From a virus: a DNA stretch of 60,985 bases. The position numbers and the translations under genes are program-made. The number at the start of each line of letters is the position of its first letter. Position 1 is the stretch's first letter. The stretch spans positions 1-60,985 of the IMG/VR virus record IMGVR_UViG_3300048996_000173. One strand, given 5' to 3'. Positions 48,245-51,616 of the stretch are shown here, in pieces. The notes beneath the pieces are model-generated. The model had not been told where the DNA came from and searched no databases. It saw nothing but the letters and a program-made list of their open reading frames with translations.

Positions 48245-48414
48245 CCGCCGAGGAACCGACCCTGGCCGAGCTGGAGGAAGCGATCACCCACGTGGCCGCG
48301 ACCGCCGGCCGGTACAGCGACGTCGACCCGAAGAAGGCCCGGCTGCACGAGGAGCTCAACCACCTGCTCGAGGACCGGGACCGCCTCTTGACGGAGCGAC
48401 CGGCGATCGGCTAA
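48241..48414 (+). CDS. Small coiled-coil protein, 57 aa
   Basis: MTAEEPTLAELEEAITHVAA then acidic/basic helix ending LLTERPAIG. GTG overlaps the previous stop. Its TAA is part of the -10 box of the promoter for the tRNA region. Function unknown. Confidence 0.5.
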   Translation: MTAEEPTLAELEEAITHVAATAGRYSDVDPKKARLHEELNHLLEDRDRLLTERPAIG

Positions 48415-48417
48415 GCT
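48388..48417 (+). promoter_or_regulatory. Promoter for the tRNA region
   Basis: TTGACG (48388-48393), 18 bases, TAAGCT (48412-48417). It sits in the end of the preceding coding region and would start transcription just before the structured leader. Confidence 0.7.
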
Positions 48418-48601
48418 CGGTACTGCCGAACAGCGCTTCTAGAAGTGGAAGACCTCGGTGCTCTTCCTGAGACGCAAGGGTTGAGCGGTGGCGGTGCAGG
48501 ATCGGAGTCGGGAAACCTGCACGCGGTCACCTGATGAACTGATCAGGACCAGATGGGCCGGTACCCTTGCAGGGTAGTCGGAGACAGGGTCTAGATCGGC
48601 A
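48418..48601 (+). ncRNA. Structured non-coding leader
   Basis: Non-coding and hairpin-rich: gtgcagg/cctgcac, cctgat-gaactg-atcagg, taccct-tgc-agggta. Lies between promoter and tRNA-like genes. May be a processed RNA or leader. No known family recognised. Confidence 0.4.
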
Positions 48602-48672
48602 ATCGGTGCAGCATGGCGGAGAGCGGTCACCCGCGGAGGGTGGCCACGCGGGTTCGAGTCCCGTCACCGATG
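48602..48672 (+). tRNA. Degenerate tRNA-like gene
   Basis: ATCGGTG pairs with CACCGAT (7-bp acceptor stem). The T arm gcggg-ttcgagt-cccgt is canonical. A 7-bp hairpin (ggtcacc, loop cgcggag, ggtggcc) takes the anticodon arm place, but the loop has G where U33 should be (centre triplet CGG). The D arm is weak, with only two good pairs. Could be nonfunctional or an unusual tRNA. No CCA encoded. Confidence 0.45.
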
Positions 48673-48707
48673 CGAAGTTCGGCGGCTTAGTCCGTCGGGC
48701 CTTAAAT

Positions 48708-48801
48708 TCGCCATTAGCTCAGTCCGGTAGAGCACCGCTTGGCCAGCCCCGCAGTGTCGGGGGTAACGCGGAGGTCCTAGGTTCAAATCCTGGATGGCGA
48801 A
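48708..48801 (+). tRNA. tRNA gene with insertion in anticodon loop
   Basis: TCGCCAT pairs with ATGGCGA, TA follows, D stem gctc/gagc, variable bases ggtc, T arm ctagg-ttcaaat-cctgg. Anticodon stem ccgc (48735-48738) pairs with gcgg (48768-48771), but 29 bases lie between instead of about 9. The extra piece holds a hairpin ccccg-cagtgt-cgggg (48747-48762). Removing about 21 bases leaves TTGGTAAC, close to a Thr GGU loop though one base long. Isotype cannot be fixed. Confidence 0.55.
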
Positions 48802-49119
48802 CGAGGTAACGAGGGATCCCGAAACCCCATCCCGCAGTGTGGAAGAGAGGGTAAGAGGGTGAGGTTCGACCTCGGTGCGGCGACCGAAAACGCCCTTCTG
48901 GTCCACGACAGGACTCGCCTTGGCGGCGCGTATCCGTCTACGTGACCCGAGCGCACTCGGGCATTCAGGCCCCGCCGGTATGCATGCTCCCCACGGTTCG
49001 ACCGTGGAACTTGGAAGCAACCGGTGGGGTCTGTCTCATTCTGCGGACAGTCTATTGACCCAATCGGCAGCAGGCTGTAGGTTTTGAGCATCAGAACTTG
49101 CAACCACCTGGAGGTTTCC
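48802..49119 (+). other. Gene-free stretch before RNA ligase
   Basis: No coding-like frame. Holds a 6-bp hairpin cccgag-cgca-ctcggg (48946-48961), ccacgg-ttcga-ccgtgg near 49000, and the promoter at 49055-49083. Confidence 0.55.
49055..49083 (+). promoter_or_regulatory. Promoter for RNA ligase
   Basis: TTGACC (49055-49060), 17 bases, TAGGTT (49078-49083), 36 bases before the ligase start. Confidence 0.7.
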
Positions 49120-50301
49120 ATGCATCTGTATGACCTGGTCGACGTCAACGAGACGACCTGGCTCTACGAGAACGGCTGGCTGAACGAGACCGAGCACCCG
49201 ACCGAGCCGCTGCGCATCCTGAACTACTCCAAGCGCGCGCAGACTGCCGTGGAGCCGTGGTCGGTCGAGTCGCTGCACCACTGCCGCGGCCTGATCTACA
49301 ACACCACCAACGGTGAGATCGTCGCCCGGCCGTTCCCGAAGTTCTGGAACTACGGCCAGGCCGGCGCCCCGATGATACCCCTGGATGCCCTTGTCCAGGT
49401 GACCGACAAGGCCGATGGCTCGCTCGGCATCATGTATCGCCGACCGAGCGACGGCGAACTGGCCATCGCCACGCGGGGCTCGTTCCTGTCGGAGCAGGCC
49501 GTCCACGCTACGCAGACCCTGTATCTGAAGCACAACGACTTCGAGCCTAATCCCGACTGGACGATGCTGTTCGAGATCGTCTACCCGGAGAACCGGATCG
49601 TGCTCGACTACGGCGCTCGCGACGACGTGGTGCTGCTGGGTGGCGTCTTGACCCACTACAAGGACCTGGTGATCCTGGGCCCGAACGGCTTTCCGGAGTG
49701 GAAAGGCCCGAAGACCGAGATCATCTACGAGGGCAACTTCGACGGCGCGCTGGCGCTGAAGATGGACCGGCCGAACTCCGAGGGCTACGTGATCCGCCGG
49801 ATGATCGACGGCGGCATGGTGAAGCTCAAGCAGGAGGACTACAAGGCCCTACACGCCGCGCTCTTCGGGCTGAACCAGCGCCGGATCTACGAGATCGTCA
49901 TGGCTGGCCGCGGCCTCGGCCAGCCGGGCCAGTACGAAGGCGTGCCCGAGTTCGACACCCTGCTGGCCCAGCTGCCCGACGAGTTCCACGACTGGGCGCG
50001 CAACCAGCGGCACCAGATCCTCGAGACGATCCGGAAGCGCGCGGATGACATCTTCGAGGAGTACGGCGCGATCGTCGAAGGCTGGAGCGTGATCTACGAG
50101 GTAGACGACCAGCGGAGCCGGAAGAAGGCATTCGCGGCCGAGGTCGCCAAGGTCAAGACGCCGTATGCGTGGGCGCTGTTCGCCATCTTCAACGGCGCCG
50201 GCCGCGACGACATCGAGGACCAGCTGCTGCACCACCTGGACAAGGACAAGGAGATCGACGCCAAGGTCCGTCCGGTCAACCAGCCGGTCGAGGAGGTCTG
50301 A
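49120..50301 (+). CDS. RNA ligase, T4 Rnl1-like
   Basis: 393 aa from ATG 49120 (CTGGAGG upstream). The nucleotidyl-transfer motif KADGS (K97 receives AMP) follows FWNYGQAG. Later ALALKMDRPNSEGYVIRR resembles motif IV (EGYVI) and MVKLKQ motif V (KxK). ATP-dependent joining of RNA 5'-phosphate and 3'-OH ends. In T4 this enzyme repairs anticodon loops cut by host nucleases. It lies beside tRNA-like genes and, three genes on, the matching kinase/phosphatase. Assigned by motif; substrate inferred. Confidence 0.85.
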   Translation: MHLYDLVDVNETTWLYENGWLNETEHPTEPLRILNYSKRAQTAVEPWSVESLHHCRGLIYNTTNGEIVARPFPKFWNYGQAGAPMIPLDALVQVTDKADGSLGIMYRRPSDGELAIATRGSFLSEQAVHATQTLYLKHNDFEPNPDWTMLFEIVYPENRIVLDYGARDDVVLLGGVLTHYKDLVILGPNGFPEWKGPKTEIIYEGNFDGALALKMDRPNSEGYVIRRMIDGGMVKLKQEDYKALHAALFGLNQRRIYEIVMAGRGLGQPGQYEGVPEFDTLLAQLPDEFHDWARNQRHQILETIRKRADDIFEEYGAIVEGWSVIYEVDDQRSRKKAFAAEVAKVKTPYAWALFAIFNGAGRDDIEDQLLHHLDKDKEIDAKVRPVNQPVEEV

Positions 50302-50302
50302 C

Positions 50303-50473
50303 GTGGCCTGGGGTCGGAAGAAGAAGCAGGACATCAAGGGCGGCAAGGGCAAGCCGAAGGAGCCGTTCGTCCCGTGCGGGAAGCCGATCCACCGGCTCGC
50401 CAAGCGGGAGAAGAACGGCTCGGTGACCACCCCGATCTGCCAGAAGCAACGTGGACACTTTGGAGGTTGCTGA
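50303..50473 (+). CDS. Small Lys-rich protein with Cys residues
   Basis: 56 aa from GTG 50303. MAWGRKKKQDIKGGKGKPKE then FVPCGKPIHRL and PICQKQRGHFGGC. C and H positions could bind zinc. Lies in the RNA repair operon. Function unknown. Confidence 0.5.
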   Translation: MAWGRKKKQDIKGGKGKPKEPFVPCGKPIHRLAKREKNGSVTTPICQKQRGHFGGC

Positions 50474-50474
50474 C

Positions 50475-50663
50475 GTGAGCAAACAGATCAGAATCCACGA
50501 CGACGGTGACGAGATCGTCTGGATCGACGTCGACGGAGAGCAGTTGCACGAGCTGAACCACGACCTCGATGGCTGGGATGGCATGAAGCGGGGGATCGAC
50601 CTGGTCGAGAAGCTCGCCAAGGCCTTCGGCGTCGAGGTCAGCTACGAGCAGGACATCGTCTGA
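50475..50663 (+). CDS. Small acidic protein
   Basis: 62 aa from GTG 50475. MSKQIRIHDDGDEIVWIDVD then a helix DGMKRGIDLVEKLAKAFGVE. Stop overlaps the kinase ATG (TGATG). Possible adaptor; no family. Confidence 0.5.
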   Translation: MSKQIRIHDDGDEIVWIDVDGEQLHELNHDLDGWDGMKRGIDLVEKLAKAFGVEVSYEQDIV

Positions 50664-51616
50664 TGTCCACACTCGTTGTAACGAGAGGCCTGCCCGGATC
50701 CGGCAAGACGACGTACGCCAGAGAGTGGGTGGCCACCTGGATCGAGACGCGGTCGCGCGTGAACCGGGACGACCTGCGCAAGATGCTCCACAGCGGCCCG
50801 AACGGCTACTCGCGCGAGCTCGAGAACGCGATCACGGCCGCCCAGGAGGCGCAGGTCACCGCGCTGCTGAAGGCTGGTCGCGATGTCATCGTCGACGACA
50901 TGAACCTCCGCCAGCAGTACGCGCGCCGGTGGGCCAAGATCGCCGACCTAGCCGGCGCCGAATTCGACGTCGTCGACCTGACCAACATCCCGGTCGAGGA
51001 GTGCATCCGCCGCGACGCCGCCCGTCTGCCGGAGGAGCGCGTCGGAGCGCGATTCATCACCGAACAGCACGTCCGCTACCTGGCCGGCAAGACGCACCCG
51101 CTTCCCTGGCCGACCAACGACTACGGCGTCGTCCCCGAGCCGTACGTGCCGCCCGGCACCGGCAAACAGGCGATCATCGTCGACCTCGACGGGACGGTCG
51201 CTCTGCTGAACGGTCGCAGCCCGTACGACGTCACCACGGTGAGCAGGGACCTGCCCAACGCACCGGTGATCCGGATCGCGCGGGACATGATGGGCATCGC
51301 TGACGAGTACGGCGACACCCTGCACATCCTCTTCACCAGCGGCCGGAGTGAGCTCGCCCGCGAGGACACGGTGGGCTGGCTGGCGGAGCACTTCTTCGGC
51401 GGTTCGGGCTATGCGTTCGAGCGCGGATGGGCCCGCCTGTTCATGCGGCCGGAGGGCGACGGCCGGCGCGACTCCGAGCTCAAGCTCGAGATCTTCAACG
51501 AACACATCCGCAACGAGTACGACGTCGTGCTCGCGCTCGACGACCGGAACCAGGTCGTTGACTTGTGGCGCTCGCTGGGACTAACGTGCTTGCAGGTTGC
51601 GCCGGGCGACTTCTGA
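50663..51616 (+). CDS. Polynucleotide kinase/3'-phosphatase
   Basis: 317 aa. GLPGSGKTT (residues 9-17) is the P-loop kinase domain; RVNRDDLRKML and VIVDDMNLRQQ are typical of T4 Pnkp. DLDGTVAL (D174, D176) begins a C-terminal HAD phosphatase, with FTSGRSE and LALDDRNQVVDLW following. Domain order matches T4 Pnkp: 5'-kinase then 3'-phosphatase. It would prepare cleaved tRNA ends for the RNA ligase upstream. Sequence-based function confident; target inferred. Confidence 0.9.
   Translation: MSTLVVTRGLPGSGKTTYAREWVATWIETRSRVNRDDLRKMLHSGPNGYSRELENAITAAQEAQVTALLKAGRDVIVDDMNLRQQYARRWAKIADLAGAEFDVVDLTNIPVEECIRRDAARLPEERVGARFITEQHVRYLAGKTHPLPWPTNDYGVVPEPYVPPGTGKQAIIVDLDGTVALLNGRSPYDVTTVSRDLPNAPVIRIARDMMGIADEYGDTLHILFTSGRSELAREDTVGWLAEHFFGGSGYAFERGWARLFMRPEGDGRRDSELKLEIFNEHIRNEYDVVLALDDRNQVVDLWRSLGLTCLQVAPGDF

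Follow-up and report, generated by a model that had tools for sequence, protein, structure and literature searches.

The DNA analysed here, referred to as the window, is the whole 60,985-base stretch of the virus record IMGVR_UViG_3300048996_000173, which has a G+C content of 66.5% and carries tailed-phage genes (terminase, portal, head, tape measure, primase, and helicase). Upstream of an RNA ligase gene and a kinase/phosphatase gene it contains an RNA gene with the outline of a tRNA and an altered anticodon arm:

48708..48801, plus strand: tRNA-like RNA; acceptor, D, and T arms intact, anticodon loop replaced (RF00005, 50.4 bits; sequence)
48735..48771, plus strand: anticodon arm, CCGC (48735-48738) and GCGG (48768-48771) around 29 nucleotides (nt) instead of 9 (sequence, RF00005 alignment)
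48747..48762, plus strand: hairpin CCCCG-CAGTGT-CGGGG within the insert (sequence and fold; about 3% chance in 29-mers)

The Rfam tRNA model RF00005 recognizes this gene with an E-value of 1.1e-9 (cutoff 29 bits) in a search of this region by itself under less strict filters, while an Rfam run on the whole window returned no families at the gathering threshold and ARAGORN did not call the gene. The alignment covers model positions 1-71, i.e. end to end, with a 29-nt gap at the anticodon loop where the model has 9. As read from the sequence, the acceptor stem TCGCCAT/ATGGCGA is paired at 7/7 positions, the D stem GCTC/GAGC at 4/4, and the T stem CTAGG/CCTGG at 5/5, one of them T-G; A73 is present and CCA is not encoded. 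The anticodon stem CCGC/GCGG is intact and position 31-39 is T-C, which leaves four of five pairs. Inside this stem lie the 29 nt TTGGCCAG-CCCCG-CAGTGT-CGGGG-GTAAC, 20 more than the normal 9, including the 5-bp hairpin; about 3% of random or shuffled 29-mers contain a hairpin of at least five G-C pairs. In its acceptor, D, and T arms the RNA thus matches a decoding tRNA, but it lacks the 5-bp anticodon stem closed by a 7-nt U33 loop. A sequence-only reading of this DNA had described a tRNA with good acceptor, D, and T arms and about 20 extra bases with a 5-bp hairpin in the anticodon loop, and had proposed covariance models as a check. This observation is confirmed, and the covariance model places all other arms as expected around the 29-nt gap.

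The same reading had suggested that the removal of about 21 bases leaves a Thr-GGU-like loop. With a canonical loop corresponding to 9 nt between CCGC and GCGG, all possible 20-nt excisions were tested, and none of them yields a 7-nt loop with U33; the sole 20-nt excision that restores the 31-39 pair also lacks U33. A Thr-GGU loop requires the removal of 21 nt, and the remaining TTGGTAAC between CCGC and GCGG has 8 nt where 9 are needed, so that the suggestion does not hold. A bulge-helix-bulge (3-4-3) around the insert was found neither by inspection nor in the minimum free energy fold. By inspection, the insert hairpin is flanked by an internal loop of 8 x 5 nt (or 6 x 2).

RNAs with this anatomy recur in viruses. 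Viral contigs were scanned for loci in which 40-64 nt (normally 25-26) separate an intact class I D arm from an intact T arm. This yielded at least 119 loci, and at least about 70 distinct tRNA-likes combine an expanded loop with intact acceptor, D, and T arms. A custom tRNA-like finder, which gave no hits in 2.0 Mb of shuffled DNA, detected 425 tRNA-likes in 1.0 Mb of control loci chosen for a normal tRNA. Among these, 411 have a normal anticodon arm and four an expanded one, two of them convincing; expanded-loop anatomy is thus rare, at roughly 0.5-1%. Among the matches listed, most scanned loci have 6-7 of 7 acceptor pairs; the 27-31/39-43 stem together with exactly five variable-loop nt is kept in 36 of 51 expanded RNAs, with the largest families left out (5.9 expected, maximum 14 in 500 re-pairings); U33 is kept in 8 of the 36 in-register RNAs as opposed to 379 of 399 normal tRNAs; and a U33/R37 loop is recoverable by excision in 13 of 38 cases, compared with 9.6 in shuffled loops (range 3-18). 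Because the stem is in register, U33 is lost, and excision performs no better than in shuffled loops, the class as a group consists neither of intron-bearing decoding tRNAs nor of simply interrupted ones. The RNA of the window has the intact acceptor, D, and T arms, the in-register anticodon stem (at 4/5 pairs), and the enlarged loop of this class, and by anatomy it is best read as a member.

No description of the class was found in open-licence PMC literature or in Rfam 15, and Rfam identifies the expanded tRNA-likes of contigs L051 and L088 only as tRNA. The inserts are diverse across families. In L016, L060:3922-4020, L086, and L095, three short hairpins lie between the D and T arms, with a GC-rich one before the T arm, and no matches were found in named phages. 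The homologous tRNA-likes L052:1050-1155 and L094:2432-2535, which are located inside tRNA arrays, each have a long additional stem-loop at the anticodon, similar in shape but altered in sequence.

Three families (A to C) were delineated. Family A, with members in 25 viral contigs, has an arm with UCAYGGYRAAGGRCC (then -WAA..GC) on a covarying stem. Compensatory changes occur at four consecutive pairs of the replaced arm (in 4, 12, 6, and 5 sequences) and also in the acceptor stem and in the GGY/RCC mini-stem (6 sequences). Its members, among them L036, L054, L070, L075, L122, and L248-L262, often lie next to ordinary tRNAs. In Family B (21 contigs), the enlarged anticodon loop consists of a hairpin followed by CUAACAGCAA, and compensatory changes are present at all four counted anticodon-stem pairs (8, 6, 5, and 3). 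Three expanded tRNA-likes each are arrayed in L051 (276-386, 474-588, 675-789), for which ARAGORN reports no tRNA at all, and in L088 (4378-4488, 1727-1842, 1241-1363); further members are found in L263-L282. The invariance of the Family A and B motifs stems partly from their use as search keys, and several Family A members first surfaced in the unbiased scan. The compensatory changes in families A and B make decay an untenable explanation of at least some members of the class, which are, judged by this covariation, selected RNAs. Family C comprises L031:1296-1391 and L284:379-474, the latter in the cultured Pseudomonas phage Haboob, which makes the idea of a viral tRNA scaffold directly testable. 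The Family C tRNA-like with its replaced anticodon arm occupies a gap in the annotation; downstream of it follow an RT-15 RNA and a reverse transcriptase accompanied by an Avd-like protein.

In the window, the RNA gene is located in a stretch of about 700 bp that follows a gene with its end near 48414 and reaches to the start of the ligase gene at 49120. This stretch is probably non-coding, because its reading frames are low in third-position G+C (0.62-0.65, compared with about 0.9 in the main genes). Further features of the stretch are:

48388..48417, plus strand: actinobacterial-type promoter-like site TTGACN17-19TANNNT, upstream of the non-coding RNA region (pattern count)
48602..48673, plus strand: degenerate tRNA-Pro(CGG)-like gene (ARAGORN, fold, without an RF00005 match at E<=1)
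49055..49083, plus strand: promoter-like site TTGAC-N17-TAGGTT of the RNA-repair genes (pattern count)

The promoter pattern has seven matches in the window, where 0.54 are expected, and none of 100 shuffles reaches seven. The sites (40010, 46039, 48388, 49055, 51558, 54152, and 59012) are all on the plus strand in the right third of the window. In the tRNA-Pro(CGG) that ARAGORN reports, U33 is replaced by G, the D stem has only 2 bp, and the fold shows an 8-bp hairpin with a 5-nt loop at the anticodon position; it is probably not a working tRNA.

The gene at 48708-48801 may be regarded, with about an even chance, as a non-decoding tRNA-like RNA built on a natural tRNA scaffold, in which retention of the acceptor, D, and T arms would allow the host's RNase P and RNase Z to process the 5' and 3' ends, would give stability, and might also permit the binding of tRNA-handling proteins. 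The anticodon loop would be replaced by a small hairpin domain, CCCCG-CAGUGU-CGGGG, displayed at the anticodon position, where it might serve as a binding site. Transcription would probably start from the promoter-like site at 48388 and include the degenerate tRNA-Pro-like RNA, whereas the ligase and kinase genes, with their own promoter-like site at 49055, would be transcribed separately. A similar architecture is known from engineered tRNA scaffolds, in which the acceptor, T, and D arms are kept and an insertion is made at the anticodon loop for stable recombinant RNA (PMC3753655). In both cases a foreign hairpin stands for the anticodon loop; the engineered scaffolds are man-made for RNA production, whereas the RNA of the window would be natural and viral. 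The Y RNA-like RNA YrlA (RF02553) and transfer-messenger RNA (tmRNA) likewise have tRNA-like modules on non-decoding RNAs. An identity with YrlA was dropped at 20.7 bits against a cutoff of 69, with a match spanning two genes, and no tmRNA was found by ARAGORN. Beyond the single gene, prokaryotic viruses might, somewhat more tentatively, encode a widespread and undescribed natural class of tRNA scaffolds in several unrelated families, which would undergo maturation like tRNAs and carry a structured non-decoding domain at the anticodon loop, and whose function the window RNA, as a member with a 5-bp hairpin as cargo, may share. The purpose of phage tRNA genes is a long-standing question that is usually framed as decoding or as replacement of cleaved tRNAs. 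RNAs that are tRNAs in all but decoding would suggest a third use, in which a tRNA is a stable, host-processed carrier of another RNA domain or a bait for host proteins that handle tRNAs; ARAGORN overlooks or miscalls genes of this kind.

Several observations weigh against the scaffold reading of the window copy. Exact and relaxed patterns of the insert retrieved no viral contigs and none of 84,980 genomes, and selection on the insert cannot be shown because no insert-bearing homologue was found. The Family A and B motifs are absent from the window, which the Family A covariance model matches through generic tRNA parts only. One relaxed-pattern match to the insert was a false positive inside a methyltransferase-like protein gene. 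Close relatives of the window itself were found neither by an INPHARED megablast nor with the portal protein as query.

These observations bear on the main and serious rival, the decay of an ordinary class I (Thr/Ile-like) tRNA that lost its function after a recent insertion into the anticodon loop, which is considered less likely than the scaffold reading. The RNA of the window is a singleton, the neighbouring tRNA-Pro is degenerate too, and the insert hairpin is only a chance event of p about 0.03. The closest normal homologue, tRNA-Ile(GAT) of Streptomyces phage Success, shares the acceptor, D, and T arms of canonical phage tRNAs with about 90% identity over the aligned parts outside the anticodon arm, and differs from the window RNA in the 29 nt for 9 in the anticodon stem and in the loop that is not restorable. 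However, pairing is perfect in all other stems, and if 20 nt had recently been inserted in one event, the former 7-nt loop should be recoverable, but it is not. Comparable viral RNAs have lost U33 yet keep the anticodon stem in register, and two of their families are under selection. Decay, one of the possibilities raised in the sequence-only reading, is still plausible for this singleton, but the non-decoding tRNA-like RNA, which was not considered there, fits best. The other two possibilities, cut-and-rejoin and decoy, fare worse: the first is not supported and the second is weakened. Both involve the RNA-repair genes downstream:

49120..50301, plus strand: T4 Rnl1-like RNA ligase (PF09511, phrog_562, PDB 2c5u/5tt6/9do4)
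50663..51616, plus strand: T4 Pnkp-like 5'-kinase/3'-phosphatase (AAA_33, HAD_PNKP, phrog_505, PDB 4xrp, 1ltq)

The ligase (PF09511 at 39.7 bits) has intact motifs (motif I KADGS, EGYVIRR, VKLKQ), T4 Rnl1 is among its closest solved structures, and its best relatives are encoded in phages of Actinobacteria, e.g. of Streptomyces and Arthrobacter. The motifs GLPGSGKTT and DLDGT of the kinase/phosphatase are intact as well, and the closest solved structures are bacterial Pnkp1 and T4 Pnk. An Rnl1-family ligase and a Pnkp with active-site motifs, the constituents of a T4-type repair module, are thus present. The pair had been placed immediately downstream of the tRNA with its own promoter; the enzymes are real and a promoter-like site is found at 49055, but the ligase starts about 320 nt downstream of the tRNA-like gene and one or two small open reading frames separate the ligase and kinase genes. 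Rnl1 relatives occur in 835 phage records, and the ligase-kinase pair is also encoded in the phages Seahorse, Bauer, and CN1A, without an annotated tRNA alongside. A query with the ligase retrieved two distant viral contigs (L002 and L003), both without such a tRNA. An Rnl1-family ligase is encoded in 3 of 45 records with expanded tRNA-likes, as compared with 1 of 50 controls; it is not required for the anticodon-replaced class, and an enrichment is not clear. Given its own promoter-like site and its presence in Seahorse, Bauer, and CN1A without an annotated tRNA, the pair is better read, by analogy with T4, as a separate module that would provide a general defence against host anticodon nucleases rather than as a partner of the tRNA-like RNA.

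The proximity of these enzymes with intact motifs, together with the TTGGTAAC loop left by a 21-nt removal, is what speaks for a tRNA-Thr(GGU) with an intron that is cut and then rejoined by the phage Rnl1 and Pnkp. This is very improbable, given that 8 nt remain instead of 9, that U33 is never restored by a 20-nt excision, that the splice motif is absent, that the promoter-like sites are separate, that ligases are absent from most records with similar RNAs and exist in pairs with kinases where no tRNA is annotated, and that recoverable loops are no commoner in the class than in shuffled loops. A splicing endonuclease was not recognized among the proteins scanned. Archaeal and eukaryotic intron-bearing tRNAs resemble the RNA of the window in having extra sequence in the anticodon loop, but in the latter a bulge-helix-bulge is missing and excision does not leave a canonical loop.

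As a decoy or sponge, the tRNA-like RNA would draw the host's tRNA-targeting defences or tRNA enzymes, which would bind or cut it and so spare the real tRNAs. Phage tRNAs have been reported to counter such defences via anticodon-loop changes (PMC10264068) and via the production of specific tRNAs (PMC11555353), but in these texts the evasion does not involve a replaced-loop architecture. The adjoining repair module and the intact acceptor- and T-arm features, which are recognized by some effectors, agree with a decoy. In T4, host tRNA-Lys is cleaved by PrrC at a normal anticodon before repair by Pnkp and Rnl1. The window shares the Rnl1-like and Pnkp-like neighbours with this system, but its tRNA-like RNA lacks the canonical loop, so that anticodon nucleases needing U33 and the anticodon are probably blind to it, and no anticodon nuclease was seen in the window. 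A decoy is thus improbable as an explanation of its own and weakened for anticodon-dependent nucleases; it is a possible function within the non-decoding reading and does not contradict it.

An assembly or sequencing artefact is the least probable origin of the insert and hardly credible. The contig is a single record from a metagenome-type collection and the insert occurs in no second genome, but a GC-rich, structured insert of 20 nt is atypical of sequencing error, no copy of the insert of at least 11 nt exists elsewhere in the window, and similar anatomy is found in many unrelated contigs.

Some minor features of the non-coding stretch were also recorded. The sequence CCCGCAGTGT is present twice, at 48748 and 48831; its interpretation as a duplication scar was set aside, as chance suffices to explain a repeated 10-mer here. 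Positions 48511-48527 match the complement of the ligase gene's ribosome-binding region (49103-49119) at 14 of 17 nt, which is equalled in 3 of 200 shuffles; a duplex-energy test was not significant. Just 5' of the promoter-like site of the ligase, a strong long-range hairpin at 48972-49031, formed by CCCCGCCGGT...ACCGGTGGGG around CCACGGTTCGACCGTGG, is possibly a terminator or a structured RNA.

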